A stretch of 64,000 nucleotides of DNA, from positions 1 through 64,000 of the forward strand of contig RWJK01001695.1 of NCBI GenBank assembly GCA_004335835.1, in the 5' to 3' direction. A program made the position numbers and the translations under genes. Below the pieces are notes generated by a model. The model was not told the origin of the DNA and made no database searches. It saw only the letters and a program-made list of their open reading frames with translations. The stretch's first letter is position 1; each line of letters begins with the position of its first letter. Origin of the DNA: Scenedesmus sp. ARA3. Its lineage: Eukaryota; Chlorophyta; Chlorophyceae; Sphaeropleales; Scenedesmaceae. Positions 6,079 to 63,700 of this stretch are shown here, piece after piece.

Positions 6079-9000
6079 TCACCTGTATGTGCCAACGTTG
6101 CCGTAGGTGGTGGGCAGCTGGGCGTTGCTGCTGAGCTGGGCTGTTGGCTCCACCCAGAAAGTGTAGGCCCCTGCATCCACGGAAACAAGCGATGCAACCG
6201 CCGAAGCAGCAGCAGATTCGGAACTGGGCCGGCATTATTGTACTATGCCGCTGGTCAACAGCCGCATCCATCGTTTTGCTTGTCAAGCTTGCTCGGATAC
6301 AGTCAACAACTGCCTGCCTTCAGTGCTGTGCTGACGCATCAAGCTGCTGTGTCAATGCCCCTTCACCTGCTTCTGGCAACGTCACGTCAAACTGCTGCTG
6401 TGTGGACCACTCAGTAGCGGGCCCAGCCACCACCTCCACTGCCTGCTGCACAAACTGCAGCTGCAGCCGCAAGTTTGAGATGCGCCAGTTTTGCGAAAAC
6501 TCGCTGCCATTCAGCGCCAGGGAGCGCTTGCTCCAGTTCGGCTCGTATGTTATAACAACTTTCAAACGCTGCGGGCCAGCTGTCTGCGCGTCAGCTGTCA
6601 CGTTGTAGTAGTCCCTGTCATCAGCGCCGCTGATTACGGCTCTGACTGTTGTCGTTATGAGAGATGGGTTGCTGGGGACTGGGCTGCACTCTGTTTGTGT
6701 GCAGAGCATGCGTGCTGTTGCAGGAGTATTGCCTGCTTCGTCTTGCAGCAGTGGCAGTGTGGCGCTGATTATGGCCAGGTCATCATCTGTGTTGCTTGGA
6801 GGGCCGGCTGCTTCTGGATAACTGGTGGAGAAGTGATGATGAGCAGACAGGGGCAAGCAGTGCAACAGCACAGAATTCGTGAAATCGTTACTTGTGTTGT
6901 CACACTGCAGTGACAGCAGCAGCAGCAGCAGCGGCAGCGTGGCGCTGATGGTTGCCAGTACATCATCTGTATTGCTGGGCGGCCCAGCCTCCTCTGGACA
7001 GCTGCAAAGTAGCATCAGTCGCAGACAGTTCCAGGCAGGACGGCAGCACAGTGTTGAAAGTGTGTCGTCACCTTTCAGTGACGACATCAGCGTGTTGATT
7101 GCCTACAGGGTCAAGCACCAACGCAAGCAGCAAGAGTGCCTCCCAACCCAGCAACAGCAAGTTGCAACGCATACGCTACTACACGTATGCTGCTGGCTGC
7201 TGCATGCAGCAAGTGATCAGGCTGCCCTCACCTCCCATTGCTCCACTGCACAAACAGCCCCCTGCCTGGCACACCCATCACCTGCACAGCAACAAAAGAA
7301 GCAGAAAGCTTCCAGATGTTGGCGTGCACAGCTGCAGGCAGTATGCAGTTCAAGGGTTGATGACATGTCAATTGCCACTGTTGCTAGAAGGCATACGCCG
7401 CATGTTGCTGCTGTTTGCAGGAAGCCATTCAAGGTGCATTGTTACGCAGCGTACAGCGTTGCTTGCAAGACAAACTCACCGGCGCCCACAGCCCTGACGC
7501 CGGCGGGATGGTGTAGTACTCCTGCTTGGTGCCGTTGGCCAGCATCACTCCTTGGCAGCAGGTTATAGGTGCCACAGACATACACTTGACATACTGTTGC
7601 TTGCAGGACAAACTCACCGGCGCCCAGAGCCCAGGTGCTGGCGGTATGGTGTAGTATTCCTGCTTGGTGCTGTTAGCCAGCATCACTCCCTTGTGTGCCA
7701 GGCCCAGGGTGTGGCCCACCTCATGGGAGATGCTCTTCCAGATGTAATTGGCGCTCACTGCCCTGTCCTCGCTTGTTATGAGGTTCCTGCAAGCAAGCAT
7801 GCGGCATGCATGCGCAGTGCGAATCAGAAGGACAGCCTATGACCAGAAAAGGGGGAGATGCTCTTCCAAATGTAGTTGGCGCTGACTTGCCTGTCTTCGT
7901 TGGTTATCAGGTTCCTGCAAGCAAATATGCACGTGCAGTGCATTATGTAGCACTCCCTTGTGTGCCAGGCCCAGGGTGTGCCCCACTTCGTGGGAGATGC
8001 TCTTCCATATGTAGTTGGCGCTCACTTGTCTATCCTCGCTAGTGATGAGGTTCCTGCAAGCAAACACGCATGCACACATCAGCATTTAATCGTGAAGAGC
8101 AGCAGCTGCTGCTGCTGCTGCTGCGGACACCTCCTCAGCTGGTTGTGCTGTTCGTCATAGCGTCATGCTATTAGTAATGCATGTTTGTCTAATATGGATG
8201 CATGCCCTGCTCACTTTGAGAACACAAAGGAATCCCTGTAGACCTCCCCGCCAGGTTTGTGCACCCAGCCAAAACTGTTCATGACGGCAATGCCACCGAT
8301 GTGGGCGCCAGCCCAGTTGCCGTCACCTGCGCAGCAGGAACACAAGCACAACATCAGCCGTGCTACTGCTGATGTTGGTGACAAAGGCTTGCAGTCGTGC
8401 ATATGCATGCCACCGATGTGGACGCCTGTCCAGCTGCCGTCACCTGCGCAGCAGGGCCACAAGCATCACATAAACCGTGCTACTGCTGATGTTGGTGTGA
8501 ATGCCTTACAGGCGCGCATCTGCATGCCGCCAATGTGGGTGCCTGTCCAGCTGCCGTCGCCTGCGCATTTGATCGCATGCAGTAAATGGGACAGGGCTTG
8601 CTGCTGCTGCCGCCACAACAGCTCCGCCACAATGCTGCTCTGTCCTTTGCACCTTCACTAGCCAGCCTACGTGGGCATGCACTGCATGGCTTGGGTACTA
8701 CAAGAACCAATGCTGCTGCCTTGCAAGGCCCGTCCAGCCTCACCTCCCACACATACCCGTATGCCATACTCTGCGTCAGCTTCATTGTCGCTCCTGCAGG
8801 TGGTGTGCAGGCAGAAAGAGTAACACATCTGAAGCAGCGGCAGCACCAGTGTCACCCGGATGGCTCAAAGTGCATCTGGCAGTGCTGCTGCCGCTGCTGC
8901 TGCCTTTTATACTGGCACAACATAAACCTGCCTCGATTGAAATGATGTGTAACTGTAAAGTCTAATTTTCAGACTGACAAGGTGATGCATACACCTACGT

Positions 9001-11433: not shown

Positions 11434-13502
11434 TGAGGCCAGTGTTGAACTGCAACAATGCACTGCTGTTACGTTTCAACCAACGCTTGAACGCATGACA
11501 CTAGAAGACAACAGCACATGCCGGCCGTCGAGGCTTGTTGTGGCGGGCAGCAATCAGACCCACAGGGCTGCTGTTTCTGACAGAGACGTTACAGTCAGTT
11601 GCATGCAAGCACCCTAGCGGCTGGTGTGCTGTTGCCGGCGGCTTGCACCTCTTGGAACATGTTGCACAACAAAGATGCCTCCACCAGCAGCTCCCACTGC
11701 CGCGCCACAAAAACAAACATGATGTCATAACACAACATTAACAGGCAGTAAATCAAGGCCGCACCTCCACCAGCAGCTCCCATTGCTTGGCCACAAAGTT
11801 GAACATGATGCGTGCATGGTGCCTGCTCAGCACAGGCGACTCGCCTAGTACCACATCCACCGGCGTCTGCAGCACATGTTATAACACAATTAGTAACGTA
11901 TGATGGTATGATAATATGTCATGTATATGTAACAAATGAGTTTGCATGCCATGGCACAAAGCTGAACAGTGGTGCCTGCTCAGCGCTGGGATGTCGCCCA
12001 GTACCACATCCACCGGCGTCTGCAGCACATGTAATAACACAACTAGTAACATATCATGGTATGATAATATGATATGTATATGTGACATATGTGTTTGCAT
12101 GCTATGGCACAAAGCTGAACAGTGGTGCCTGCTCAGCACAGGGGAGTCGCCTAGCACCACATCCACCAGCGTCTAGAGGCACACGTCACAGCATGTGTCA
12201 CATACGACTCGTTCAGAGGCAGTCGTCATGGCAGCTGGCAGGCGAGCAGAGACCTTATGCAGAACAGCAAGTGACTGAACGCCCAGTGCACTGTGCAGGA
12301 GGCAGCAGGAGGTGGACTAGCAGGCAGCAGGAAGGAGATCAGGAGCTGGCCAGATTGTGCTTAGCAGCCTCACCTTGCTTTTCCTGCCCATGATCACTTT
12401 GTACTTTTTGATGTACACCTCCAGCCCATTGTCACACAGCAGCTTGGCAGACCAGTACTTCAGCAACTTTGCCATTGCAGTCACCCCATCAGCCTCAGCA
12501 CTCAAAGCTGCCGCTAGCCTATTCAGCTACCAGCTGAAGCAAAAAAAGCGGCAAACGCAGCAAACACAAGTGGGAAACACATCACAACCTCACCTTGCTC
12601 TTCCTGCCCGAGCCCTGCCAAGAAACGACAGCACGGCACCAGCGAACCAGACCACCGCAAAAAGCCACGCTTTAAATGAGCGCACGGAAACAATACGCCC
12701 CGCTTGTGCCCTAGGGCGCAAGTGGACGGGTAGAGGGTGTGGAGCCCAGGGGCGGCGCCCCTGGCCACACACANCCTCTTAGCCTTAACTTACCCAGGAG
12801 CTGCAGAGCTGCCTGGGTAGTCACTCACTCACTCACTCACTCTTCCTGCCCATGATCACTTCGTACTTTTTGATGTACACCGCCAGCCCATTGTCACACA
12901 GCAGCTTGGCAGACTAGCTAGTTCACTGGATTTCACCAGCGATCATGCCACAGCACGGCCATCAACCCCACTGCCTATCAAACTCTTGTTGGACTGCACT
13001 CCCACCCAAACGCAGCCGTATTGATTGGTTGTGGCAGCAGAAGATAGATGTTAACCTCACCTTGCTCTTCCTGCCCATGATGACCTCATACATTTTGATG
13101 TACACCTCCAGCCCGTTGTCACCCAGCAGCTTGGCAGACTAGCTATTCTTAACAATACTTCATCTACAAACCGCCGATAGCCTATCCAAATTCGAGCTGA
13201 ACTGCAGCAAACATATTGTTCAGAAACAAGTTGCAGACACAGTACGCCCTCACCTTGCTCTTCCTGCCCATGATGACTTCATACTTTTTTATGTACACCT
13301 CCAGCCCATTGTCGCCCAGCAGCTTGGCAAAGCCACACTTGGCAAAGCGGGGGTCACCTGCTGCTGCTGCTGCTGCTGGTTGTGGCTTTGCTGCTGCTGC
13401 TGGCGGCTGTGCTGCTGCTGCTGCTGCTGCTGCTGGGACTGGCAGCGGCGGCAGGCCTGCAGGCACTGCTGCTGGCTGCTGCATGCCTGCCTGTGTGTGC
13501 AT
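10677..13502 (-). CDS. FHA-domain protein (plant FHA2 / fungal Fhl1-like FHA)
   Basis: Three exons, 13502-13254, 11866-11765 and 11378-10677, join in phase to 350 aa from an ATG. A Pro/Ala/Gln-rich leader precedes the forkhead-associated domain, which is split over all three exons. The pieces are GFAKLLGDNGLEVYIKKYEV and IMGRKSK (the GR phosphothreonine-loop strand), then VDVVLGDSPVLSRHHARI (the SRxH motif) and FNFVAKQWELLVE. The last is GKNGVTVNG followed by LQSQDLLQAGDHNFYFLLP. This order matches nuclear FHA proteins of the FHA2/Fhl1 type, which bind phosphothreonine peptides and act in transcription. After the FHA come a basic segment (KVTRRRAPNKPKP), a long Ala/Gln/Pro-rich tail and an acidic end (EFDQDEDAAMDMP). 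The protein is probably nuclear. Confidence 0.85.
11383..11431. repeat. (CAG)n abutting the FHA exon 3 acceptor
   Basis: About sixteen CAG units on the plus strand are (CTG)n in the gene sense and run directly into the acceptor at 11380-11379. The microsatellite itself forms the pyrimidine tract plus acceptor. Confidence 0.9.
11669..12177 (-). repeat. Partial copies of FHA exon 2
   Basis: Acceptor-side copies at about 12175-12121 and 12027-11970 (VDVVLGD..LSRHH) lie upstream of the real exon 2 (11866-11765). A donor-side copy at about 11722-11669 (RQWELLVE) lies downstream. The intron sequence between the copies (TATGATAATATG and surrounding bases) is also repeated, so the unit spans intron plus exon edge. 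Confidence 0.85.
12773..12773. other. Single ambiguous base (n)
   Basis: One unresolved base inside the first intron of the FHA gene. It lies next to a degenerate stretch and just before a (CACT)n tract at 12823-12842. Confidence 0.95.
12823..12842. repeat. (CACT)n microsatellite
   Basis: Five CACT/TCAC tetramers directly before an FHA exon 1 copy, in the first intron of the FHA gene. Confidence 0.85.
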
Positions 13503-23400: not shown

Positions 23401-25832
23401 GCCTGACATGGACATTGCCTTTTCAAATGTGCTTGCAGGGGCGGCAGCTGCTGTACGGCTGGATGCAGGAGCACCGCCGCGTGCCCACCCCGCCTGCGCT
23501 GTGTGAGGACTTCTGCTATGCCGGCTGCATCGGCACCCCCAGGGTGCTGACACTGCTGGGTGACAGGCTGTACCAGACGCCCCTGCCGGAAATTGATGCA
23601 CTGCGGACAAGGTGAGGCACCTTATGCTGCTGGTGCACCACATCACAACATGTGGTGACGCCTGTGCTGCTGTGTTCTTCTTGCTGAAGCGTATGTCGCA
23701 GGCATTGGATGCATTTGTGGTTGTTATTGGTTTGTTGCAAGAGTGCGCAACACCCCCAGGGTGCTGAAACTGCTGGGTGACAGGCTGTACCAGACGCCCC
23801 TGCGGGAGACTGATGCACTGCGGACCAGGTGCGTGCTATTCTATTCTGCTGCTTTTGATTCATTTCTTAACATTCCATCTAAAGCGTGTGCTGCTGATGC
23901 ATAATCGTGATAGGCAAGGGTGCGAATGGATAGTTTTTTGGGTTCATTGCAGTAGTGACCAGCAGTGACCAGCGCGGGTGCTGACACTGCTGGGTGACAG
24001 GCTCTACCAGACGCCGCTGCCAGAGATCGATGCACTGCGGACAAGGTGCGTGCTGCTCTGCTGCTTATCAATGGTAGGTTTGTTTTGGTTTGTTGCAGTA
24101 GGAGCAGCGCAATTGCTGTAGCTGCTGGGTGACTGGCTGTACCAGACACCCCTGCCAGAGATCGATGCACTTCGGACCAGGTGTGAACGGTGTGGTTTTT
24201 GTGTGTTTCACATTGCAGCTTGGTGCAGTCATGTTTGATCCCTGCATGTTGCGACGTAATGGTGTTTTTTCCTGTTGCGCACTGCACACAGAATTAGCCA
24301 TGGTGACCGTGGCGCAGTGCTACATAGTCGCTAGCGCATATGATGCTGCTCAGTTGCACTTACCACCACCACCAGCTCTTGCTGAGAACACTGAGCTTTG
24401 ACTCAGCGCCTTTACCTGCCATTGCTTTGCTGCTGCTCTGCTTGCTGCTGCGTTGTACTGCTGCTTTGCAGGGTGTCCTGGCATGCGCAGGACCTGTCCC
24501 TCGGCCCTGATGGCCCCCTGCTGCCGCTGCAAGTGGTCAGCGGCACACACCTCGACATCAACATCAGCTTCCAGCCACCCTCAACATACACACCACCATT
24601 CATGGCCACAGCAGCAGCAGACACAGCAGCATCTACAGCAGACAACACAGCAGCAGCAGCAGCAGCAGCAGAGTCAGCGCGTGTTGGCCTCATCTTCAAG
24701 TCCTGGAGGCCCTGCGGCAGTGGCGCTGCTGTGCTGTCCTTTGACTGGTCAACTGCTGCTTTGACGGTTGACTTTGACGAGCCGTTGCCGGATGCTTACA
24801 CCCCAAACCCTGAAGACACACCGGAGCGCAAGCGAGTTGGCGGTGTGCTGCGCAACTACGTGCCAGGTGTGTAGCATAGTTGATGCCAAAATTGCGGAAG
24901 TGGTTGTTGTTTGTGGAGATCATTTTTGCATTTCTCATTTCAGGGGGTGCTCTGTTCAGCAGTGAAGGTGGGTCTAGGTGTTTGGTGCTCTTATTGGCTG
25001 TGTTGAGTGTCGACTTTGATAAGCCGCTGCCGGATGCGTACACACAAAACCCTGAGGACACACCGGAGCGCAAGCGCGTAGGAGGCATGCTGCGCAATTA
25101 TGTGCCAGGTGCGGGCCACAATATGCTATGCTATGCATGCAAGCTTCGCCTGCGGCAGTTGCATTCAAGTCGTGGACTAGTTTGAACAGCCGGGGCTCCA
25201 CTGCAGCAGCTGTTCTCTTGTTCCATGTGCATCTGTCATTTTCCTCTGCACCGACAACATGCTGCTGCTGCTGCTGTTACAAATCCTACGCGTCGGAGGC
25301 AGGCAAGCCTGCTTGAGCCTATGCTCTTCCATGCGTAAATTAGAGAAGGACAAGGACAGGCCTGGGCCTGAGAGCTCTATCGTAAGAACTCATTCCCATC
25401 CTACTACGCTGCTGCTGCTGCTGTTGTCCTGTCTGTGCTGCTGCTACTTCTTTCACTACTGTTGCAGGCAGCCCGCTGTCCCTGCGTTTGCTGCTGGACG
25501 GCTCAGCGCTCGAAGTCTTCACATCAACCGGCGAAACCCTCACCACCCGCATCTACCGGGGACACCCTCCTTCCACCATCACCTGCAGCAGCCCCACAAC
25601 CCCACCAAACACAGCAGCTGGGTTCGCAGAAGATGCGACCGGTATCTCGCTGTTTGCTGCCGGTGCTGCGGTGGCTGTGAGCAGAATTGATGTTTGGGAG
25701 ATGGGCTGCTGCGTGGTTGAGCTGCAGGATTCATCTTGGCTGGATGAGGCTATACATGAGCACCCGCAGCACCAGGCGGATGATGCTGACTTGGACAGGG
25801 TGCTTCGCCAAGCAGCACGCAGCACTGCCGGC

Positions 25833-25874
<42 letters not shown>

Positions 25875-42558: not shown

Positions 42559-45500
42559 GGCAGCCCAACTGCTAGTGGCGGCAGCGGAGGCGGCAGCGGC
42601 AGGGTTCCACCTACGCATGTGGTTGCACCTGACCTGCCGGCAGACTTGGATGTGTTTGACAATGCAGTGCTGCTGGTGGATAAGCCGCTAACATGGACCT
42701 CATTTGACGCCTGCAATGCCATCAAGGGCGCAATGAAGCGGCTGGGTGTAAAAAAGGTACACAAAAGGCACTGCTGCATGCAGCACGAGCGACATGTGCA
42801 TTGCGGGCGGCATTGATGTTCCTGCAAGTGTTCCTGCCAGTCATGCTGCGAACATTTTACTTGCATGAGATTGACCAGGGTCTGCAGCAAAGCAGCTGAA
42901 GTAACATGCCAGCTACATGCGGTGAAAAAGGTACCAGCAGTGCACAACCCAGGTTACCAGCCCCTGTTGGAGTATGTACAGACAATGCACCCTGCTGCTG
43001 CTGCTGCAGGTGGGCCATGCTGGGACCCTGGACCCTGCAGCCACAGGCCTACTCATCATCTGCACAGGTGCGGCTGGCATAACTGTCACAGCCAGAACAG
43101 TTACTTCCGCTTAGCAGCAGAGGCCACACAATCATGCAATGATACCTATCAAGCAGGCACAACAGCACCATGCTTGCATGCGCTGGTTTTACTAGGGCCT
43201 TTCTTTTGTTTCCATCCTCCTATGCAGGAGATCTACCTAGGTTATGCTGAGGTAGCTATGTTTATGAAAGTAGCAGTAAACTACAAAACCGGTACATGCC
43301 TGCAGGTCTTGGCACCAAGTCCATTGAGGGATTTATGGCTGCGCACAAGGAGTACAGCGGCACACTCAAGCTGGGCTACAGTGCAAACAACTGACTAAAA
43401 GCAATACACTTGTAACAATTGCCTGCAGGTCTTGGCACCAAGTCGATTGAGGGCTTCATGGCAGCGCACAAGGAATACAGCGGCACACTCAAACTGGGCG
43501 AGGGCACGCCCAGCCTGGACGCGGAGCTGGAAGTGAATGAGCGGCTGCCCTGGGAGCACATCACAGGTGTGGCACGGCCGAATGCAGTGCGTGTGAAAGC
43601 GTTGTACACTGATGGATACAATGGCAAGATGTATCGCCGACCAGCAACGTACAGGTGCGCCCATGTTCAGCGTGCTGTTTGGCGTCATTGCTTGATGTCT
43701 TGCTGTGTCTCCTCTTGCATATGAGCAGCTAGTTCAAGCATCAGAAAGCCGACTGGCGCCATCACAGCCGCTTTGGGTGCCTGGTGATTTGCCTCCTTGA
43801 ATCTTCTTCTGTGCAGATGAGCAGCTTGTTGAGGCAGCAAAGAAGCTGACTGGCGATATCGAGCAGGTGGCCCCATGTTCAGCGCGCGGCACCACCAGGG
43901 CCAGCGCCTGCACGAGCTGATCGGAGCTCGTGTCACGCTTGTTGCCTGCTGTTGCCGCTCTCTTTTGCAGGTGATCGGCTTGCGCAAGCTGGCACGTCGC
44001 AGATTCACGACACTGAACAGCTGCCGCTGTAACCTTTTTGCCAATGTGCCGCATGCTTCCTGCAGACGAGCAGCTGGTTGAGGCAGCCAAGAAGCTGACG
44101 GGTGACATCGAACAGGTGCCGCCCATGTTCAGCGCGCTGCACCACCAGGGCCAGTGCCTGCACGAGCTGGTCCGCGCTCACGTCACGCCTCTCACCTGCT
44201 GTTGCTGCTCTCTTTTGCAGGTGATCGGCTTACGCAAGCAGCCACGTAACACAATCTCACGACACCGCATAGCTGCCTATGCAACCCTTTCGCCCCGCTG
44301 TCGCATGCTTCCTGCAGATGAGCAGCTGGTGGAGGCAGCCAAGAAGCTGACGGGCGACATTGAGCATGTGCCGCCCATGTTCAGCGAGCTGCATAACCTC
44401 ACAGCCTGCCGTCGTACTGTGTGTCGCTTGTCTGCTGCGGTTGTTTACGCAGATGAGCAGCTTGTTGAGGCAGCCAAGAAGCTGACGGGTGACATCGAGC
44501 AGGTGCCGCCCATGTTCAGCGCGCTGCACCACCAGGGCCAGCGCCTGCACGAGCTGGCGCGTGCTGGCGTGACTGTGGAGCGGCCTGCTCGGCCAGTCAC
44601 CATCACACGCTTCGACGTGCACAGGTAAACACATCTGTCATGCGCACATGTCGCGTATTTGCCAAAATTCAAGCGTATCGATCACTCAAGACGTTGGCGT
44701 TTGAATTTGCACCACCGGCACCAATAGCTGAGTATCTTTGGCCCTGATGCCTCCTGACACGTCTGAAGCTACCATACCATATAAAGCTGCAGGGACCCGG
44801 TCGACCGCCAGCTGGTGCACTTTTGTGTGGGCTGCACCAAAGGCACCTACATCCGCACCCTGGCACCCCCTAACACACACAACGCTGTTCACTCTTGGTT
44901 TGCTGCTGCAGGGACCCAGCCGACCGCCAGCTGGTGCACTTTTACGTGGGCTGCACCAAGGGCACCTACATCCGCACCGAGGACCGTTCCAATGCCTGCT
45001 AACGTACATACCTTCATTTGCTTTGTTGTATCCTGCCGCAGGGACCCGGCCGACCGCCAGCTGGTGCACTTTTATGTGGGCTGCACCAAGGGCACCTACA
45101 TCCGCACCCTGGCGCCCCCTACCACACACCAAACTGTTCACTTCATCCCTTATTGCGGCAGGGAAGGGACTCAGTCGACCGCCAGCTGATGCGTATGTGC
45201 ATACGCAGGCTGCACCAAGGATATCAATAAATTTGCGTACCACTCCAGTGCCTCTTAACACATGCAACTCCATGCATGCACTGCTGCAGGGATGCAAGCG
45301 ACCGCCAGCTTGTGCACTTTTACGTGGGCTGCACCAAGGGCACCTACATCCGCACGCTGGGCCATGACCTGGCCACATCACTCGGCACCACAGGCCACCT
45401 GGTGGCACTGCGGAGAGAGGCGATTGGAGAGGCACGGGTTGATGTGGCGTGGGATGTGCAGGTGCTGGTGGACAAGCTGTTTGCTGCCATCAGGTGAGCC

Positions 45501-46489
45501 TGATTTGGGATGGGACGACATGTGGGGTCGCATTTAAGATGGATTTGAAGATGTGATTTAGGGTCTGGTCATGACCTGGCCACCTCACTGGGCACCACAG
45601 GCCACCTTGTTGCACTGCGGCGAGAGGCAATTGGAGAAGCCAGGGTTGATGTGGCATGGGACGTGCAGGTGCTGGTGGACAAGCTGTTTGCTGCCATCAG
45701 GTGAGCCTGATTTGGGATGGGATGACATGTGGGGTCGCATTTAAGATGGATTTGAAGATGTGATTTAGGGTCTGGTCATGACCCGGCCACCTCACTGGGC
45801 ACCACAGGCCACCTTGTTGCACTGCGGCGAGAGGCAATTGGAGAAGCCAGGGTTGATGTGGCATGGGACGTGCAAGTGCTGGTGGACAAGCTCTTTGCTG
45901 CTATCAGGTGAGCCCTGGTTTGGGATGGGATGGCATATAGCGGTGGCTTTTTTACATGATGAATTTGGCATTGAAGACACTGCGGAGAGAGGCGATTGAA
46001 GAGGCCAGGGTTGATGTGGCGTGGGATGTGCAGGTGCTGGTGGACAAGCTCTTGATATAGGATAGGTCTTGCATGATGTTAAAAAAGCAGCATCAACTCG
46101 TTGCCTGATGAGCGGGTCAGGAGCAAGTACTCACAATCATTGGTTTTGGGGTTGCCGAGCGGGACAGCAGCATGCACGTGCAAGCACCCAGGTGAATCTT
46201 AGACCACATGACTGCAAAATAGTGCATGTGTTCACGTCTTTTGTGGTCCTTATGTTCTGCCTGCAGGGAGAAGCAGGGCGGGACAGAAGAGGATTTTAAG
46301 CCGTGGCAGCCCAGGGGAGTCTACAACAAGCGGCCACGCAACAACAAGGGCAGAGCACGCGGCAAGGGCAAGCAGCAGCAGCAGCAGCAGGATACAGCAG
46401 ATGCGCCGGCAGCAGCGGGGCAATCGGCAGCAGCAGAGCAACCAGCAGCAGCAGAGCAGCCGGCAGCAGCAGAGCAGCCGGCAGCTTGA
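41896..46489 (+). CDS. truB: tRNA pseudouridine-55 synthase, TruB family (probably plastid)
   Basis: Six exons, 41896-42756, 43010-43067, 43429-43566, 44453-44624, 45290-45493 and 46267-46489, join in phase to 551 aa. TruB motifs appear in order: [19 protein letters not shown], then [20 protein letters not shown] with the catalytic Asp, [68 protein letters not shown] and [14 protein letters not shown]. The enzyme isomerises U55 of tRNA in the T loop. The ~235-residue N-terminal extension begins [20 protein letters not shown], which is Ser/Arg-rich like an organelle transit peptide, and continues with Ala/Asp low complexity and a poly-Gln run from (CAG)n at 42523-42555. The C-terminal tail is basic ([15 protein letters not shown]) then Gln/Ala-rich. 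ATG 41902 is an equally good start. Confidence 0.92.
43306..43380 (+). repeat. Partial copy of TruB exon 3 (5' part)
   Basis: [20 protein letters not shown] follows a CTGCAG acceptor 122 bases before the real exon 3 (43429). It ends after the codons for KLG. Confidence 0.92.
43815..44396 (+). repeat. Three partial copies of TruB exon 4 (5' part)
   Basis: Copies at about 43817-43925, 44066-44178 and 44318-44395 repeat [24 protein letters not shown] sequence, each after a GCAG acceptor. The first carries an altered GTGGCCCC that breaks the frame. The complete exon 4 starts at 44453. Confidence 0.93.
44793..45225 (+). repeat. Four partial copies of TruB exon 5 (5' part)
   Basis: Copies at about 44793-44862, 44913-44976, 45041-45111 and 45168-45225 repeat [24 protein letters not shown] sequence. 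The fourth is badly decayed. The full exon starts at 45290. Confidence 0.93.
45571..46052 (+). repeat. Three partial copies of TruB exon 5 (3' part)
   Basis: Copies at 45571-45701, 45773-45907 and 45978-46052 repeat [20 protein letters not shown] through [18 protein letters not shown]; the first two keep the CAGGTGAGCC donor. The intron sequence behind them (GATTTGGGATGGGA, GGTCGCATTTAAGATGGATT) is copied too, and the first two copies are nearly identical over about 200 bases. Confidence 0.95.
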
Positions 46490-46989: not shown

Positions 46990-48610
46990 ATGGCATTGCT
47001 GGGATTGCGTTCTAGCTCCTCTCAATCAGCAGCAACGTCCGCGCATTGCTCTCGATCTCAACTATCAGTAGTAATCGGACATTGCACAACGCTGAAAGGC
47101 ACTGTAGCAGCAGCTAGGCCTAGGGTGCAGCAGCTACAGCAGAGACGCAGCATGTACTGTGCTGCTACTGCACAAGAAGCACAGAACACACCTGGAGCTG
47201 CACCCTTAGACCTCACTGGATTTGTGGCAGCCAATGCACCAGCAGGTGGGCGTGCAGCAAGCTGCGGCTGGGAGCCCTTTTGTGGGTTGGCGTGCATGCA
47301 CTGCGCAGCACAGAAGCAGCAGCATGTACAACACGAAAGCTGCAGCTGCGTTGCACAGCACAAGTTACCATGGAGAGGAGACCAAAAAACCTCTCAAAGA
47401 CGCAGAGTCTCAACAGGCAACATGATATTTTACATGCACACATGCTTGCACAAAGGGCACTGTCAGCCTGGCATGCACAGCAGGCTGTGCCCACCGGCAT
47501 CGGCCCACTGCCCACTACACATCACATACGCAAACCTGCGCGTCCTTTTGCACCACAAGCCAGCAGCAGCTCATGAGCGACATAGCTGCACGCGCAGCAC
47601 TTTCTCAGCAATGCAGCCGCTCTGCTCATGCATCCTGATACACAGAGTCAGCCCAGAGCCTGGCGCTGTTGCTGTCCAGCATTGCTGCATATGCTGCAGC
47701 AACATTGCAATGTGGCTGCTGCCATTTGCAGAGTCTTTTCAGAGCCTGCTGCTGGCCAGCGGTGCATGTGATGCTGCATTCATGTATTCGTTGCTGCTGC
47801 GGTCTGCAGATTCTGCTCAGAGCCTGGCGCTGCTACTGTCAAGCGTGGCAGTGGCAGTCAAGCAGATAGCCGGCAAGGTGTCCCGTGCTGGCCTGGAGGG
47901 CTTGTTTGGGGTGGCAGAGCAGCAGGGCGGCGGCAGCGGCGACACACAGAAGAAGCTTGACGTTGTTGCGGTGAGCTAGCAGCGATCGCTAGGCGACCTT
48001 GCTGTGGAGTAGAAGCTGAGTAATGTTTTCTGCCTGTGCTTGCTTGCCTCAAGCTTAAGCATGCATGTACAGCAATTGCATGCGGTGCTGTCAGCTGCAT
48101 CTGGCATTTCTGAACCTGGCCTGCTGGCCTAGAGGGCTTGTTTGAGGTGGCGGAGCAGCAGGGCGGCGGCAGCGGCGACACACAGAAGAAGCTAGACGTC
48201 GTTGCGGTGAGCGGGCAAATGAAGCAAGAATGCAAGGATAGTTTGCTGCATGTGTTACCTTGCTTGCTAGTAACAGTGTGGGCTTTGAGCATGTGGTGCT
48301 GTCAGCCGCATGAATGCTGGCTTGGTGACCCAACAGACTGGCTTGCAGCTACGCAGTGCACGTAGTGTGGCGACACCAGCGCTGTCAGCATCGCGCTGAC
48401 AATGCTGCATACACCGAACTATAACCAGGCAACCCTGCGTGCCTTAACAAGCATGCTGCGTGAAAGAGTGTATGTAAGGTCAAACAGCGCTGCTATTCTG
48501 TAATTGTGTTTGCTGCAGAATGACATAATGAAAGCAGTGCTCTCAGCCAACCCTCAGGTGGCAGTGCTGGCCAGTGAGGAAGATGACGAGGCAATGCTGT
48601 GCAGCAGAGG

Positions 48611-48648
<38 letters not shown>

Positions 48649-48954: not shown

Positions 48955-51536
48955 TGGCCGCTGCCCAGGCACCATCTTTGGCGTCTACAAGAGCCTAGCA
49001 GCTGCAGGCAATGACAAGCTGGATGCAACAGCAGCAGCGCTGCAGCCCGGCACTGAGCTCGTGGCTGCCGGCTATGCGCTGTACTCCTCCGCTACAATGC
49101 TGGTGATCTCCACTGGCCAGGTGAGCATGGTTTCTACAATGAAGGAAGAAATGAATGTTGCTGCTGGTGTCAGTGCATGACATGGTCGCAGGCTATATGC
49201 TGTACTCTTCAGCCACCATGCTGGTCATCTCCACGGGGCACGTGAGCATGCTGGCTTGAGGCTGTCTGCTGCAGCCTCCTGTGATAAAGGGCAGTTTTGT
49301 CTGCATCACATGGTTGCCCAGCTCTGCGCTGCGTTCCTCAGCCACCATGCTGGTCATCTCCACAGGGCAGGTGAGCATGCTGGCTTGACAAATACTCGAC
49401 CTGAGGCAGGTTGCATTCATTGCAGAATGCACTGTACCCTTTGTGCCTTCTTCACATGGCTGCCCAGCCTTCATCACATGGCTGCCCAGCCTTCATCACA
49501 TGGCTGCCCAGCCTTCNNNNNNNNNNNNNNNNNNNNNNNNNNNNNNNNNNNNNNNNNNNNNNNNNNNNNNNNNNNNNNNNNNNNNNNNNNNNNNNNNNNN
49601 NNNNNNNNNNNNNNNNNNNNNNNNNNNTCACATGGCTGCCCAGCCTTCTTCACATGGCTGCCCAGCCTTCTTCACATGGCTGCCCAGCCTTCATCACATG
49701 GCTGCCCAGCCTAGGCTGCTAGGCCTGTGAGCTGTACTCAGCCACCACGGGGCAAGTGACCATGCAGCTTGATGCAGTCTTTTGCAATCTGCTTGGAAGT
49801 GCTTTCTGTATGGCATGGCTGTACTGCTAAGTACATAAAGGTGTTGTGCATTTGCACCTCCTGCAGCTGCATGTTCAGCACCCGCGGCACTGCCTTGGCA
49901 CCAATGCAAAGCAAACCGTGCTGCAGCCACTCGCCAGATATATCCCTTGCCTAGCTTTGCGATGCCCAGGCGTGCAATCAAGTTTGCATTATCGTTTTGA
50001 CAATGCCATGGCACACTGTCATGTTCGTAAACATATGACTGCCAATTACGCCTGCAGGGCACCCACGGGTTCACCCTGGACCCCTTGTGTGGCGAGTTCC
50101 TGCTTACCCACCCCAACATCAAAATCCCGCAGCGAGGGCAGATCTACAGCGTCAATGACGCACGTTTCCATGACTGGCCAAAAGGGCTGCAGGCATACAT
50201 TGAGGCCATACGGCAGGGCAAGGGGCAGAACCCCAAGCAGTACAGTGCCCGCTACATCTGCTCGCTTGTAGGAGACTTCCACCGGACACTGCTGTATGGA
50301 GGTGAGCGGTGTGTTGTGTGCTTAAATGACTTGTTGCTGGGTGCGTTTGCACATCAAGCAGGACAGTGCCCGCTACATCTGCTCGCTGGTTGGGGACTTC
50401 CACCGAACGCTGCTGTACGGAGGTGAGCGGGGCCTTGACTTACATTGGGGTTGGCCGCTTGCATGCTTGGCGTCAGAGTTTTTGTCTTTGGTCTGCGTGT
50501 CGTCATGTTCAAACCGCCGCAAGCGAATGCATGAACCCCGGCTGCCACGTGCGCCTTGTGTACGAGGCCGACCCCCTGCTGAGCAGGCACGCACTCACCT
50601 CTATTGAACTGTTTTAAATGTTCAAATCCCTGCAGGCGTGTGCATGAACCCGCGCTGCCACCTGCGGCTCGTCTATCGGACCACACCCTGGCGGCCAGCC
50701 GCTGCGTCACTTCCTTGTATTGCCATTGTATTGTTGCAAATTGCTGCAGGCGTGTCCATGAACCCGCGCTGCCACCTGCGCTTGGTGTATGAGGCCAATC
50801 CGCTGGCGCTGCTGTGCGAGCAGCCGCCAAACCGCCGTTTTTTGAAACGTTTTCGAACTTGCAGCCGCAGGTGTGCGCATCAATCCCCGGTGCCACCTGT
50901 GGTTCGTGTACGAGGCCCACAGCCCCCCGTGGCCGTTGGAACTGCGGATACACTCTTGTATGTTTCTGTTGTTCAGGCGTGCGCATGAACCCGCGCTGCC
51001 ACCGGTGCCTTGTCTACGGGGGCCAAACCCCTGCGCAGGGCACGCCCAGCAGCATGCTTGACTTGCATTTGACTTCCTTTTGAAATGTTTTGCTTGGCTG
51101 CAGGCGTGTGCATGAACCCGCGCTGCCACCTTCGCCTCGTGTACGAGGCCAATCCCCTGTCGCTGCTGCGCGAGCTGGCATCCGCCTGACTCTATTGAAA
51201 CGCGGTTAAATTTTCGATCTGCTGCGAGCGTGTGCATGAACGTGTGCCGCTACCTACGGCTCAACTGACTTAAATTGCATTTTGTGTTGCATCGCCGCAG
51301 GCGTGTGCATGAACCCCCGCTGCCATCTGCGCCTTGTATACGAGGCCAACCCACTGGCGCTGCTGTGCGAGCAGGCTGGCGGCATCGCCAGCGACGGCAA
51401 GCAGCGGCTACGAGACATCAAACCTGCAAAGCTGCACCAGCGGCTGCCGCTGTTCATGGGCAGTCCAGATGACATGACGGAGCTGATGTCATATGACGAT
51501 GTGCAGCAGCTGGACGGCAAGACATACACGGTGTGA
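46990..51536 (+). CDS. Fructose-1,6-bisphosphatase, plastid isoform II type
   Basis: Six exons, 46990-47245, 47810-47970, 48519-48717, 48969-49120, 50058-50301 and 51301-51536, join in phase to 415 aa. The leader ([20 protein letters not shown]) is transit-peptide-like. Catalytic and metal motifs include [20 protein letters not shown] and [34 protein letters not shown] and [15 protein letters not shown] follow. The C-terminal half has [20 protein letters not shown] and [19 protein letters not shown], the wording typical of chloroplast FBPase II. It hydrolyses fructose-1,6-bisphosphate to fructose-6-phosphate in stromal carbon metabolism. The Cys-containing redox loop of isoform I is absent. 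A poly-Ala/Gly run encoded by (GCT)n (48610-48657) sits between SEEDDE and the DPLDGS motif. Four of its exons have intronic partial copies. Confidence 0.92.
47643..48210 (+). repeat. Partial copies of FBPase exon 2 on both sides
   Basis: Acceptor-side copies at about 47645-47690 ([12 protein letters not shown]) and 47730-47770 ([11 protein letters not shown]) precede the real exon (47810-47970). A donor-side copy at 48126-48206 ([20 protein letters not shown]) follows it and keeps GCGGTGAGC. Confidence 0.9.
49190..49375 (+). repeat. Two partial copies of FBPase exon 4 (3' part)
   Basis: [13 protein letters not shown] and [12 protein letters not shown] copies at 49200-49242 and 49337-49371, both followed by GTGAGCATG like the real exon end at 49120. 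A third scrap lies at 49731-49757. Confidence 0.92.
49449..49722. repeat. 22-base minisatellite with assembly gap
   Basis: Units of TTC(A/T)TCACATGGCTGCCCAGCC repeat three times before and about four times after a 111-base run of n. The array lies in the fourth intron of the FBPase gene. The gap probably hides further units, so the true length is unknown. Confidence 0.95.
49517..49627. other. Assembly gap (111 n)
   Basis: Unresolved bases inside the 22-base minisatellite. Confidence 0.99.
50358..50422 (+). repeat. Partial copy of FBPase exon 5 (3' part)
   Basis: [20 protein letters not shown] follows the real exon 5 end (50301) after 56 bases and keeps GTGAGCGG. Confidence 0.93.
50510..51300 (+). 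repeat. Seven-copy array of FBPase exon 6 starts
   Basis: [24 protein letters not shown] segments begin near 50519, 50635, 50750, 50869, 50976, 51104 and 51225, then the real exon starts at 51301. Spacing is about 107-128 bases (76 for the last). Most copies follow a GCAGGCGTG acceptor and share intron sequence of the type TTGAAA.GTTTT...TTCGAA. Copies vary at several codons and the seventh is badly decayed. Confidence 0.95.
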
Positions 51537-52051
51537 GGCGTGAAACTGCAAACTTCTGCGTAGACTACGGCAGCCCTGGAGTTTGCTGTTCTCGTGGTTC
51601 GGGATGGTGGGGGCGTTGCAAAGACATGCGGGAGCTGACGTCATATGAGGCGGCAGCTGGGCATTGCCAGTGACGGCCAGCAAGCTGCACCAGCGGCTGG
51701 CGCTGTTCATGGGCAGTTCCGATGACATGACGGAGCTGATGTCATACGAGGACGTGCAGCAGCTGGACGGCAAGACGTACACAGTTTGAGGTGTCATGCG
51801 TATTGTCATTTGTCTTTCTGTAGTCAGAGCGCGGACAGGCACATGGGCAAGTAGGCTCTCCTGTGTTTGCTGTGCAGCAGCTGCACAGGGAGCAGTGCAC
51901 AGTGGAGGTCGTTGCATGGTTTGAAACACCCTCGGCAAGCTGCACTAGCAGCTGCAGCTGCCGCTGTTCGTAAGGAGCGCTGATGACATGCGGGTGCTGA
52001 TGGCATGTGATGATGTGCAGCAGCTGGATGGCAAGACGTACACAGTTTGAG
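51537..52051 (+). repeat. Two copies of the FBPase terminal exon (3' part)
   Basis: 51676-51789 repeats KLHQRLALFMGSSDDMTELM through GKTYTV and TGA almost intact, preceded by shuffled scraps (DMRELTSYE, GIASDGQ). 51943-52051 is a third, decayed version with an internal TAG but the same GKTYTV-stop end. They lie downstream of the true stop at 51536 and could act as alternative terminal exons or merely be relics. Confidence 0.92.
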
Positions 52052-54964: not shown

Positions 54965-54997
<33 letters not shown>

Positions 54998-56868: not shown

Positions 56869-59800
56869 TCATGCTGCTTTGATGAGGTCCTCGCCATCCT
56901 GCTGCCCTTCACTGCTGTAGCAGGGCAGAAGCACTGCAGGCAAGAGCCACAGCGGCGGCAGCAGGCAGCCGCGTTGAACATCAGAGATCAAACGCCAAAC
57001 GGTTCGACCACGCTGCTGCCATGCCATTGCTGCTAGAACTGCTTCACAGCATGATGCCCGTTCTGCACCAGCAGTCAACGCCATGCTGTTGTCAATGGCA
57101 TCTTCTGGATGCAGGCTGCAACCTCTAGTGCCCAGCACGTGCATATGCAGCTTGCTGCAAGACAACCCTATTACCAAGCCCCGGTAAATTGACTCACGGT
57201 TGCCGCCTGCGCCTGTCTTGCTCACGCTGCCACCTCTGCTCGGGCTGCCAGCAGCCAAGCTACCAGCAGCAGCACCAGCGCCGCCACTGGCACTCGTCAT
57301 GCTCTTGGCTCGCTGCTGCTCTGCTTCTGCCTCTGCCATGTGGTCTGCTATCTCTGCGCCAATTTCTTCTAGCTGCGCCTCCAGCTCTGCTACTGCTGCT
57401 TCTGCCTCGTCCCGTTGTCGCTCAGCCAGCTGCTTCTGCACCTGCAGCGCTGCCAGCTGCACACGAGCCTGCAACACAGCAACAGCAGCAGCAGCAGCAG
57501 TACGCAGCAAAGCCAGTTTCAGCCATGCTTGCTATGCGTAGAGCACACATACGCCGCCTGCACTGCCACGGCTGCACGCCACAACAAGTATCTCTGTGGC
57601 AATCAAAACCCACTGCACAACGCTGATGCAACAATGCACTTGTTTAGGTGAGCATGGCGTCAGCAGATGCACGCCACAGCATATTTTGCGCTTCTGCCCA
57701 CCCACCTCTTCCAGCTGCCGTGACAGGCCAGCCACTTCGCTCTTTGCGCACTGTGATGGGCCACATACGCATTCAAGGCCGGCAGCATATGCTGCACACA
57801 ACGCATGCGGTGCTTGCCTCCTGCCCCCGCCCCCTCCACCCCACACACCCACCTCTTCCAGCTGCCGAGACATGCCAGCCACTTCGCTCTTTGCCGCACT
57901 GTGATGGGCCACATACGCATTCAAGGCCGGCAGCATATGCTGCACACAAAGCATGCGGTGCTTGCCTCCTGCCCCCGCCCCCTCTGCCCCACACACCCAC
58001 CTCTTCCAGCTGCCGTGACAGGCCAGCCACTTCGCTCTTTGCGCTGCTGTACTTGGCCAGATACTCCGAGCCTTCTGCCTGGCTTACGCCCAGCTGCCCG
58101 CTCAAGCCAGCCAGCCGCCCTTCTGACTCAGCCAGTTCTGCTGCTAGCTCGCTGACGCGCCGCTGCTCACCAGCTAGCTTGGACTGCGCGCCGTGTAACA
58201 GGCAGCAGCAGAGAGTGAGTAGCAGAGTGAGTAGCACGGGGATGAATACGTTGCTGAAGGGTGATGGGTGTGTTCCACCCGGACTGGTGTGTCTTGCTGC
58301 ACCCACTGCAGTTCGCCAGCTGCCCTATGTTATGTCTAGGCAAGCACACGGACGTTGCAGACAGAATCTACAGCTGCTCTGGCACAGACGCCAGCAAGGG
58401 AGGCACCTCACAAGAGTAGCACTACTGGAGATGCACACATGCAAGCCATGCTGTGCGGCGCGGTAACACACAGGAGTTTGCTGATTTGCTGTAACCTGCG
58501 CGCACCTGCAGCGCTGTGACCTCCTGCTCGTGTGCCACGCGCGCCTGGCGTGCGGCTGCGTCTGCTTCCTGCTGCACGCTCAGCAGCCGCTTCTCGCCCA
58601 CCAGCTGCAGCTCGCGCACCTGCGCCTCCAGCGCAGACACCTGGCCGCACCAGCAGCACAGCACAGCAACACAAACTGTTGGCCTTCACCGAGCATTTGG
58701 CAAATGAAGGACTTAGATAAGTCAACCAATCTGTGTGTTTGGCCACACAATGCTGAGCTGCTGCTGCCAGCTGCAGCTGCTGCCTGACCTCGCCTGCCTC
58801 TTTCTCCATGTCCACCTTGTCTGCATTGCATGCTGCGCTGCTGCTGTTGCTGCCGGTGTCACCAGCTGTGGCTGTGCCTCCTCACCGCCTTGTTTATATG
58901 TGTCCACCTTGCCTACAATGCACGCGCGCTGCTGCTACTGCCACCGCCGCTACCGCTGTGAACAGCTGTGGCTGTGCCCCCTCACCGTGCCTGCCTTGTT
59001 CTCGTTGTCCACCTTGTAGGCAGCCCACGCTGCTGCTGCCGCTGCTGCTGCTGCCAGCTGTGGCTGCGCCGCCTCACCTTGCCTGCCTTGTTCTCATTGT
59101 CCACCTTGTCTGCATTTGCGCTGCTGCTGCTGCTGTCAACAGCTGTGGCTGTGTCCTCACCTTGCCTGCCTTGTTCTCATTGTCCACCTTGTAGGCAGCC
59201 AGCTCGTGCGCCTGCTCCTTCACGCGCCGCTTGAGCTCACCCACAGCAGCAGTCGAGTCAGCCAGCTCAGCCTCAGCCTGCAGCAGCAGCACGCAACACG
59301 ACGAGGAAGCCATGTTGACTGACTTGTGCATTTGCCGGCACCTCCAAGTTTCCAGTGCACCGCAGCCCGTCAGCTGTACAAGGTGTATGTGTTTACCTTT
59401 GTTGAGTGTTGCACAGTGCGGAGCGGCACAAAGGCAAATACAGTGAGCCAAGCACCACGCGTGGCTGCCAACACGTGAATAACACGCCAATGCATCTGAA
59501 CAGCAGCCTCAACGGCTGCACAGCAGTGTGCTGTGCCTGCCCCTGCCCAGTCATGATGTGCAGCCCCGCACCTTGTCTGCTTTGCTGCGGCTGCTGCTGA
59601 TCTGCTTGTGTGCCAGCGCCAGCTCCTCAGCCAGCCGCTTCACATCAGAGCGAGCCTGCAGCAGCAGCAGCAGCAGCAGCACATTATCCCAAGCCTCGGC
59701 TGCAGCATGGACAAAGAGCTCAGCATGCATGCATTGCACCACGCCGCAACACACAGCATGCACCGCACCAATGGCGGCAGCGGTAGGAGCAGCCGTACCT

Positions 59801-60759
59801 GCGCTTCTTGTCGGCCCAGCATTTCGTTCACGATGCGCGGGTATGTGGCCTTGAGGAACTCCACCAGCTTCACCCATCAGCAAGCAGCCTGCCCTGCCTC
59901 CCTACCTCCGCTATCATCACATCTGTGCCTCCCTCCAAGCCACACGCGCATGCAGAAACAGACATCACACCTCCCTGCCCCCCTTGCTGTAGCATTGCCT
60001 CCCCTGCTTCCTCAATCGTACCTGCGCCTCCTGCCGGCCCAGCATCTCATTCACGATGCGTGGGTAGGTGGCTTTGAGGAACTCCACCAGCTTCACCCAC
60101 TTGAGCGGGCCGGCCGCCAGCCGCATATACTGGTCCAGGAACTGCAGCTAGCAAGGGCAGAACATTATTTTGCGTCACGTGCAAGACGTTTGATCATGCA
60201 CAACAATGCATGAGCTTCACCCACTTGAGCGGGCCAGCAGCCAGCCGCAAATACTGGTCCAGGAACTGCAGCGCGGCGGACACGCAGCACATGATACATG
60301 AAAGCTGACAAAGCACATGCATCACATGCCACTTGAGGCATTTTGAGGGTATGTCTGTCAAGACGGCACAGCTGCAGCGGGCCAGCATCCAGCCGCACGT
60401 ACTCATCCAGAACAGCAGGCAGACAGCCAGGCGCTGCAGCGCATACAACACTAAGGCAGAACGGCTTGATTCATAGCCTGACTTCGGCCCACAACCACAC
60501 AATCTGCTCCAGGAGCTGCAGCCAGACAACTAGCACGCCAGTGCATCATGCACAACACTTCAAAACATTTGAACTACAGGGCAAGTCAGCAGCAAAGCCG
60601 TAGTCACGCCTCCCACCTGTCCCAGCACCTCCTGCACATGCTGCGGGTCGCCGTCCGTCGCCAGGGCGCTGCTGACCAGCGTGCTGGCCTTGAGCAGCAG
60701 CTCGTTCACAGTGGCGGCAGCCTCCGCCAGCTTGCGCGCACGCACTTGCGCAAAGCTGC

Positions 60760-60792
<33 letters not shown>

Positions 60793-63700
60793 CAAACGCA
60801 AGGTATCTCAGCATGCAAGCTGTCAGCAGGAACACCGCCCAGCAGCAGCAACAGCTGTACTCAAACCGCATACGTGCCGTGGCTGCAGTTACACTCACCA
60901 CGCTGCGCAGTGCCCTGCAAGTGGACAGGCATGCAAAGCAAGTACCTGCAGCCCTCTTATGTGCTCAAGGTGCACTCATACTCACCGCGCTGCGCAGCCC
61001 TCCATGTACTTGGCCTTGTGTGCAGCACGTATGCGCTCCTCGCCCACTGCTGCATCCTCGAAGGCAGCAGCAGCCACGCTCAAGCAGCGTGCATGCTCCT
61101 CATCCAGTGCTGCTTCCTCAGGCACCACACCCTGCACCCAGCATCCGATTCAATTGAATATAACATTATATGATTATGATTGACACAGCACGTACATGTG
61201 CATGCATATTACTGCTTGCTCAAGCATTACAAGCAGTGCAGACAAATTCGCTCTTTGCCATGCAACAGAGCTAGGCCGCAGTTATGTGGCGTAAAGCAGG
61301 TGTGTACAACCGCATCACAAAGCAAGGTGCCGGGCACGCACCTCGTCGAAGGCTGCCGCGTATGCCGCCTCGGCGACGTCTGCTGCTCGCCGGCACTCCT
61401 GCTCTGCCACACCCTGCAGCAGCAGAGGCGGCAGCACATGCGCAAAGCAAGCTCAACACTAGCAAATGCACTGCAATACATTGTGCTGTTAATGATTTGA
61501 CTGACTGTGGCTACATGCACGCATGCGGCAGCAGCCCGCTCAGCCTGAAGTGCACACAGCAGCCACTGCAGTTAGCTGCTGCCCCCTTTGCAGAACTGAC
61601 ATCAACAGGACGCACACCTGCCATGCCGTGGCGATAGTTGGCACTGCTCCATCATTGATGGCCTGCACATACGCCTCAGTGAGCCCAGCCAGCACTGGCC
61701 CGCTCAGCACATACGTTCCCAGGTGCTTGGGCTGCGCCTGCAGGAAGCAATGCAGACACACCGGCAGCATAGCTGTCATTGAGCTGTGATTATTGTGTCG
61801 GTTGACGGCACACATGGATAGCACAGCGTCATCGCTAGCGCTAGCACACAGCTTCCTGCAGAATCTGTGCCTCATTTGGTGGTTGAGGGACCACGTACTG
61901 GTTTGGTGGCGCTTGAACATACCATGCAGCTGATTTGCGGGATGCCGCTGATCCTGTGGTACATCGTGACAAAGCGCTTCAGCAGCTGCAAACAACCAGC
62001 TCCACGCAAATGCTACTAGACCTCCACAACAGGGCAGTGCCCTGCCAGAAGCTAGGCAGCACACACGCCACGCACATGCAGGCGCAACGCCACAGCCGAC
62101 TCACCTTCTGCAGGATGAGCTTGAGCAGTGACGCCACGCCGTCCCTGAACTCCGGCCGCAGCTGCTCCGGCTGGATGTGGTCCAGCGTCACCAGCGCCTG
62201 CAGCCACACAGAATGATGCAGCATTATGCGACAATCAGCATCAACAGAGCTGCTGGGAAGGTGATGGTGAAGCAGGATGCAGGGCCACTGGTAGTGTCAC
62301 AACTGTGCTGGATGTGGTCCAACGTCACCAGCGCCTGCACAAACCATCCAGCATCACGCGACAATAGACATCAACAGAGCTCGTGCAAATGTTACAGTGC
62401 AGCACTATGCAGCGGCCGACGGCAGTGATACAGCTGCGTCGTTGCTGCAGTGCTGCTGCCTCCGCTGCGAGGAAGCGGTTTGCACGCCTACATGCGTGCA
62501 AGGATGCACGCCCTGTCAGCACGCTGGCCTCTCAAGGGTTCGCGTTGCAGCCAGAAGCAACCGTTGCCTGACGCATCACCCTCCATTGCAGCAAGCCCGC
62601 CACCAGCGCACCAACCCCACTCACCAGCTCGTCGTGCATGGGGCGCACCAGCGTGGCGCAGTCCCTGTCAGGGAACATCCCTTTATATATGCACAACTCA
62701 TACCAAACACCGCTCTCCAGCCCCTCAACAGCTTGGCCACATAAAGTTCTCCCTTGCCTGTCACACAAACACTGCTCGCGCAGCATCCACTAGCCTCACC
62801 AGCTCGTCGTGAATGGGCCGCACCAGCGTGGCGCAGTCCCTGTCAGGGAACAGGCCCATCCACAATCCAAAGGTTGACTACACAATCCCCACTAGCCCCT
62901 TGCCAGCTCGCTGTGCATGTGTCCACTTCCCTTGCACATCCTCCCTGCCCTGCCACATTACCCTGCCCTCGCCAGCCCGCGCCCCTGCTCACCAGCTCAT
63001 CGTGCATGGGGCGCACCAGCGTGGCGCAGTCCCTGTCAGGGAACAGGCCCTTGATGCTGGTGCGGATGGCGTTCTTGGCCTCCACGGCAGCGCCCAGGCC
63101 CCCAACAGGCATCAGCGCAGTCTCCAGGTAGTCGTTGGGCGTCACCTGTGCAGAGGATTACGCAGGTCATGATACGTTACTACCAGCAGCTTCAAAAGAG
63201 GTGCTTATCCAGACAGAGGCATCAGCGCGGTCTCCAGGTAGTCGTTGCGCGTCACCTGCGCAGGAGGTTATCAGTTATGCATGCACCTGTCAAACCAGAT
63301 CTTTGAAGCAGCTGTATGGTCTGCAGGTAGTCGCTGGGCGCCACCTGCGCAGGAGATTATGCATGCACACGTGCGCTACCACAACAGACACAGCTGAAAA
63401 CAAGGATGTCGTGAGCGTATTGAGCACAGACAACCATTGAGAATGCAGCTGAACGGAAAAAACCAGCACCATTAATGCACTCACAGTGCGGCCGTGCTCG
63501 TCCTCCAGGCGCAGGTAGAAGTCTCGCAGCAGCCACAGGAAGGAGGGCGTGAACTCGCGCAGCTCGCGGTCAGTCTGGATGGAGCAGCAGCAGCAGCAGC
63601 AGCAGCGGCGGCAGCAGCAACAGCAGCAGGTACAAACGCTCAATGGCATCCTGGTCACAACTTACATCCCATCTCACCGCGTGTGTGATCGTTTGTAAGC

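Follow-up and report, generated by a model that had tools for sequence, protein, structure and literature searches.

Partial exon copies beside the exons of their own genes in the green alga Scenedesmus sp. ARA3

The stretch of DNA analysed here, called the window throughout, comprises 64,000 nt from the green alga Scenedesmus sp. ARA3 (contig RWJK01001695.1, positions 1 to 64,000) and comes from an assembly of 87.3 Mb in 1567 contigs (GCA_004335835.1). Its genes carry partial copies of their own exons beside the exons, and such copies are found in many parts of the sampled genome; the copies are real. Among the genes named in an earlier note on the window, GH32, FHA, ABC transporter, TruB, GBP and FBPase agree with Pfam matches, while the metallopeptidase falls below the curated cut-off and the COX23-like gene was unconfirmed. 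The closest organism by protein is Tetradesmus obliquus, FBPase being 98% identical to OEZ86_009300. For TruB and GBP, too, the named proteins of highest identity belong to T. obliquus, with 95% over 46% of the query for TruB and 77% over 99% for GBP. The source was accordingly taken to be that species or one very near to it.

Comparison of the window with itself at a threshold of E<=1e-6 gave 93 local pairs in direct and 3 in inverted orientation, both counted before the low-complexity filter. Grouping of the hits, with those of at least 260 columns omitted, yielded 41 families and 100 copies, 10 of the families having at least three members. The 59 extra local direct copies in this grouping are close to the figure of roughly 60 given in the earlier note.

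The FBPase gene lies on the forward strand and has six functional exons (46990-47245, 47810-47970, 48519-48717, 48969-49120, 50058-50301 and 51301-51536) that form a clean frame of 415 aa; OEZ86_009300 holds each of these exon sequences one time. The 3' part of exon 2 with its donor recurs downstream at 48122..48212, 94.5% identical to 47886-47976, and the match stops 6 nt beyond the splice site. Sequence comparison places two downstream copies of the 3' part of exon 4 at 49182..49370, and a downstream copy of the 3' part and donor of exon 5 is found at 50355..50430 (90.8% to 50234-50309). Exon 6 is preceded by seven copies of its acceptor region and 5' part (50520..51262), the last of them short and the majority decayed. 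Two copies of the C-terminal end are located 3' of the stop (51660..52050), with homology ending within ~5 nt of the stop codon. A 22-bp minisatellite also occupies an FBPase intron (49445-49712) and is broken by a 111-base gap of N. No close second FBPase locus was found in the assembly, only distant relatives, and a second homeologous locus was therefore rejected. One such distant relative, at G000:C903:127721-129920, matches exon by exon.

The TruB gene, likewise on the forward strand, has copies next to three exons. The acceptor and 5' part of the exon at 43429 recur upstream at 43297..43376, with 0 nonsynonymous (N) to 6 silent (S) changes. Three upstream copies of the acceptor and 5' part of exon 44453-44624 begin at 43817 (t1), 44066 (t2) and 44318 (t3) within 43817..44400, and t1 contains a 1-nt frameshift. 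Exon 45290-45493 is flanked on both sides, by four copies of its acceptor and 5' part upstream (44786..45240) and by three copies of its 3' part downstream (d1 to d3 within 45567..46053; d1 and d2 with donor), the latter in a 207-bp unit with two exon types. The end of the T. obliquus TruB protein OEZ85_000768 (P0170, from a 3.9-Mb contig) corresponds to window positions 43816-43917, that is to t1, at 100% over 34 residues with the frameshift included, and the translation of t1 equals residues 121-154 of that protein. The functional exon, t2 and t3 match it at 90-95% over 20 residues, after which another frame is required. Because the match runs through the frameshift of t1, this copy is present in an independent assembly. 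The OEZ85_000768 annotation is truncated because its gene model runs into t1 as a decoy half-exon. The earlier note had foreseen decoy splice sites as a by-product of the copying; they are present, and here one misled the annotation of another assembly.

Copies of three exons were found in the GBP gene on the reverse strand. The functional exon at 62993..63145, equivalent to residues 198-248 of the GBP protein P0218, has one copy upstream (63205-63258) and two downstream (62795-62870 and 62618-62700). The functional exon at 60022..60141 has an upstream copy at 60210-60265 and a downstream copy at 59799-59880, and the 3' part of exon 57995-58186 is copied twice downstream (57695..57920). The copy at 57695-57770, when translated, gives the fifteen extra residues of the protein OEZ85_000766, which are absent from both P0218 and OEZ86_009298. 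Between OEZ85 and OEZ86 the GBP proteins disagree at 18 of 760 residues, and the name T. obliquus thus covers diverged lineages. None of the GBP copies is present in P0218. Its contig, at 3264 bp, is too short for the gene with introns and P0218 was therefore taken for a transcript; from this one GBP protein without copies we infer that the copies are spliced out.

The earlier note had stated a side rule, by which copies that keep an acceptor and the 5' part of an exon lie upstream of the complete exon, and copies that keep the 3' part and a donor lie downstream. The rule was followed by all 31 copies checked by hand in FBPase, TruB and GBP, a set picked from the hits, with functional exons resting on homologous proteins, that includes one copy aligned over 14 nt only (FBPase e7) and omits other short hits in GBP, at 58.98-59.11 kb. 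For an automatic test, the window was joined by 28 stretches of 10 kb from elsewhere in the genome, of which 27 were used since one (L012) consists entirely of N. This test sorted 275 pairs into 211 crossing one exon edge, 35 covering a whole exon and 29 interior to an exon; the gene finder had been self-trained starting with a single gene and called some copies as exons, so that these and all other automatic counts are approximate, and the pairs are not independent of each other. The side rule was obeyed by 187 of the 211 edge pairs (donor-type, 109 downstream and 9 upstream; acceptor-type, 78 upstream and 15 downstream). At least one of the violations (TruB 44326) is a gene-finder error, and the rest were not individually examined. 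Tandem exon duplication, in which a copy holds both splice sites, does not describe the pattern, as the 211 edge pairs stand against 35 whole-exon pairs. When a segment across one exon edge is duplicated in place, the copy that still continues into the remainder of the exon always lies on the side of that exon, so the side rule is a consequence of the geometry of any such duplication and no separate law.

Local pairs were present in 26 of the 27 usable stretches, with none in L023, so that the pattern is not restricted to the window; such a restriction is what the earlier note had named as counting against it. Together these stretches (268 kb) contain 135 families with 169 extra copies, after removal of low-complexity CAG/CTG matches. 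In the first 20 stretches, including the one made up of N, there were 182 direct and 3 inverted pairs; direct copies covered 28.8 kb (~14%) of these first 200 kb, as compared with 0.5 kb (0.25%) for inverted copies and 0 in shuffled sequence. Among pairs of at least 88% identity, 124 of 129 lie inside predicted genes and 5 are intergenic, with gene limits taken from the self-trained gene finder.

As to the fate of the copies, the distance between the two members is divisible by 3 in 23 of the 29 interior pairs, as compared with 83 of the 211 edge pairs. Without seven pairs from one long predicted, repeat-rich exon and two misfiled TruB edge copies, the interior figure is 14 of 20. This reading-frame filter is in line with the suggestion of the earlier note that exonic duplications are removed by selection, and its view that the copies differ in age was also supported. 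The one retained splice site is intact in 51 of 53 copies, which is partly so by construction. At their inner ends the copies show no excess of the second, missing site (33 acceptor-type, 56 donor-type). AGGT is not enriched either, being found in 7 of 54 blocks where 8 are expected. Cassette exons and intron creation at AGGT were rejected on these two grounds. In the donor-type copies at 32818 and 48134 a silent G/A difference creates an AG just within the inner end. Were the copies functional alternative exons, the scarcity of stops, the mostly silent differences and the intact retained site would be expected. However, the unenriched missing site and AGGT, the lack of a clear frame filter on edge copies and the absence of any copy from P0218 make this reading hardly credible.

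Differences between the copies and the functional exons are mostly silent, and stops are few. The 31 hand-checked copies show 66 N : 146 S after correction for phase, where we estimate that ~55% nonsynonymous would be expected under neutrality. In class-2 pairs, those in which the homology of the copy ends within 15 nt of a splice junction, the 37 pairs of at least 90% identity show 61 N : 119 S with 1 stop and 4 gap events. At 60-80% identity the class-2 ratio is 79 N : 46 S, and the silent excess is thus a trait of the younger pairs. Because a copy dead from birth would, by our estimate, give about half or more nonsynonymous changes, constraint seems to have acted on both members of a pair for much of their divergence, despite half-exons having no useful translation. 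Mutation bias by codon position was rejected as the source of the silent excess, base composition predicting factors of 0.98, 1.01 and 0.98. Exon-to-copy gene conversion as the sole cause was rejected by reasoning, as it would give N : S near neutral or higher. In the 55 predicted exons with at least two copies, changes specific to the functional exon fall at codon positions 1, 2 and 3 in the numbers 20, 18 and 72, and copy-specific changes in the numbers 152, 157 and 252; the latter indicate that copies decay almost freely. A comparison over all aligned columns put intron divergence at about that of third positions. Copied exon parts had at first looked far better kept than their intron tails, which proved to be partly an artefact of binning by exon identity.

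The earlier note had explained the copies by repeated tandem duplication of short segments, with purely exonic duplications removed by selection. Its in-place, direct geometry stands, inverted pairs being few, and a class of truly contiguous pairs exists (the TruB 207-bp unit; 57699-58064; 8290-8567; 11817-12174). Random duplication plus purging as a sufficient cause is not supported, as judged by the scarcity of intron-only and intergenic pairs, the spacers mostly without recognisable relation to a flank and the discordance of exon and intron histories in one array. Of the 129 pairs with an identity of 88% or more, 71 lie almost entirely in exons, 43 are mixed, 10 lie in introns and 5 lie between genes. 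We simulated single random in-place duplications with uniform ages and 50-255 in length, placed in stretches without real pairs and detected in the same way as the real ones; of 1500, 1169 were detected, 242 purged and 89 missed. Of the 600 detected at >=88%, ~38% fell in introns and 21% between genes, while 35% were mixed and 6% exonic. Intron-only and intergenic pairs thus make up 15 of 129 (12%) as compared with ~59% in the simulation, a miss by a factor of ~5, and exon-only pairs make up 55% as compared with 6%. Breakpoints are therefore not random relative to exons. At >=88% identity, homology runs out 3-12 nt beyond the junction in 29 of the 50 pairs of donor type and in 12 of the 33 of acceptor type, and it is bounded by the coding sequence in about half of edge copies.

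Outside the contiguous arrays, most spacers show no recognisable relation to either flank. Of 92 adjacent pairs 25-160 nt apart, the spacer was homologous to a flank in 20, counting those that reached p<=0.01 in at least one of two tests, as compared with 5 at p<=0.01 in one test for a control at a random place. Unrelated spacers also occur in pairs of 90-98% identity. Intron flanks of class-2 pairs beyond position +8 scored above the 95% null in 14 of 120 pairs; residual intron homology was set aside, amounting only to a slight group shift above the null (p ~1e-6). When the spacers of two loci were searched genome-wide, as would reveal introner elements shared by many unrelated genes, none appeared elsewhere among the matches listed, and mobile elements were rejected for these two loci on that result. 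If random 75-250-bp segments were often duplicated in tandem within a chromosome, with neutral decay of the dead copy and purging of exonic ones to follow, this would account for the contiguous arrays, the near-neutral copy-specific changes in multi-copy families, an aligned intron divergence close to that of third positions and the frame filter. In view of the simulated proportions, the unrelated spacers, the nonsynonymous deficit and the TruB array described below, we regard it as a serious though unlikely account of the whole.

A second possibility is copying that is specific to exons, for example templated by pre-mRNA fragments, which would place an exon with its splice-site consensus in the adjacent intron. 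Many copies do consist of exon plus 3-12 intron nt, and intron-only copies are rare. Two FBPase copies, however, stop where the coding sequence does, which is not an RNA-processing site. Exon interiors would also be expected in introns, yet interior pairs number 29 of 275 and the second copy is mostly non-coding in only 8 of these. We consider this mechanism very improbable.

In the TruB array two exon types occur, and their distribution disagrees with that of the introns. With F for the end of the functional exon, the exon parts of F and d1 show 12 differences, all silent, and those of F and d2 show 16 (1 N), while d1 and d2 differ at 4 of 134 positions. The introns group otherwise: F and d1 differ at 1 of 73, F and d2 at 19 of 76 and d1 and d2 at 18 of 76, the last two each with 6 gap columns. 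Over the 76 nt common to the four sequences there are 10 variable sites, of which 5 unite F and d3 against d1 and d2; F stands alone at 2 and other patterns hold at 3. Exon and intron pieces thus differ in history, an outcome to be expected of recombination between two types.

This discordance, together with the 18 of 760 residues that separate the GBP lineages, leads us to favour exchange between diverged haplotypes. Short segments across one exon edge are duplicated in place, in the same orientation and repeatedly; the unbroken exon remains functional, and the adjacent half copy, retaining one splice site, is probably spliced out and decays. The copies may arise, or may later be reshuffled, when two haplotypes of one gene that have diverged strongly undergo unequal exchange or conversion, for which exons would be the only well-matching anchor. 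Since the introns of the two haplotypes would differ, the recognisable repeat would be confined to coding sequence, the two copies would differ at silent sites from the outset and intron-only duplications would go unrecognised. We put forward such an exon-anchored origin tentatively, at slightly less than an even chance. The wider proposition, that exons are the sole homology anchors between hyperdiverse haplotypes and that exchange keeps placing half-exons in introns as a recombination-driven form of intron growth that would leave coding-bounded traces across the genome, is possible yet rather doubtful.

Several observations weigh against exchange between haplotypes. Where compared (FBPase and two GBP sites), amino-acid differences of the copies do not match OEZ86 residues, and no close second locus was found in the assembly for FBPase or L006. 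Half of the variable sites in the TruB array (5 of 10) follow other patterns, and d3 groups with d1 and d2 at 2. Contiguous arrays exist, and contiguous pairs with alignable introns are also rich in silent changes (47 N : 74 S at 80-86%). The copy-specific changes in multi-copy exons are near neutral, as plain decay predicts. Finally, in a small number of pairs at 98% (in the ABC gene and at L006 1069/1310) the flanks are unrelated and silent differences almost absent, for which two haplotypes account poorly. The L006 pair consists of two dead copies.

Diverged haplotypes could also act through the assembly. Heterotype false duplications, in which allelic overlaps are left unmerged, would produce the same geometry and the same silent-site bias. 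If part of the copies were such artefacts, the silent-biased differences, the coding-bounded homology and the side rule would all be expected, and the assembly does contain N gaps. Against this, an independent assembly contains t1, frameshift included, and another of its annotated proteins holds a GBP copy, so that two copies are independently supported. The 55 predicted exons with at least two copies and the mostly decayed series at FBPase exon 6 also speak against it, and we judge a partial artefact to be improbable.

Internal gene duplication and intron creation were reportedly treated by Gao and Lynch in 2009, and intron gain by tandem duplication is said to have been found in studies of potato RdRp and of Drosophila. 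Like the former, the copies described here involve duplication wholly within genes, of both exons and introns; they differ in being present in nearly every sampled 10-kb stretch, mostly as half-exons and often bounded by the coding sequence. As in intron gain by tandem duplication, direct duplication occurs in or near exons, whereas no new functional intron was found here and existing introns bear the copies. Some introns hold head-to-tail units of ~90-260 bp that resemble minisatellite-like arrays, yet the units bear an exon edge of the host gene and many spacers are unrelated. Internal gene duplication is already known; the density, the half-exon form and the coding-bounded copies set the present case apart. 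Among the literature matches listed, none describes such copies in Tetradesmus or Scenedesmus.

The copying may have consequences for gene structure. PMC5966456 gives a mean intron of 462 bp for T. obliquus UTEX393, as compared with 230-302 bp in four other green algae, and describes T. obliquus as having the longest introns and the lowest coding share of the five. Our results suggest half-exon copying as a concrete candidate source of these long introns. In such a genome decoy splice sites can break gene models, as with OEZ85_000768, and the half-exons with intact sites offer many natural tests of how the spliceosome ignores them. Exchange between diverged haplotypes, if true, would provide a testable link from population diversity to intron growth.

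Copies were also found in further genes of the window. In the metallopeptidase-like gene (reverse strand) the 5' parts of two exons are copied within 7684..8567, with 7951-8069 and 7812-7930 matching 7684-7802 and an array of a 117-bp unit at 8290-8567. One exon segment is present in four copies in the FHA gene (12368..13340, reverse strand) and one in four copies in the GH32 gene (23542..24200, forward strand), the latter at spacings of 217, 217 and 135. The long ABC transporter gene (29135-40825, reverse strand) has 36 predicted exons with short introns, and its neighbours are full of pairs. One of its exon ends (32869-32927) is copied at 32765-32823 with 98.3% identity and an unrelated 45-nt spacer. 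With two local pairs only in the ABC transporter gene at 29-41 kb, susceptibility to copying seems strongly gene-dependent. A large direct duplication spans 52400-55190 with an offset of ~1.3-1.6 kb and 81-83% identity. The GH32 gene additionally contains an in-frame coding tandem repeat at 25768-26035 (111 + 96 bp), in which one pair shows 0 N : 8 S.

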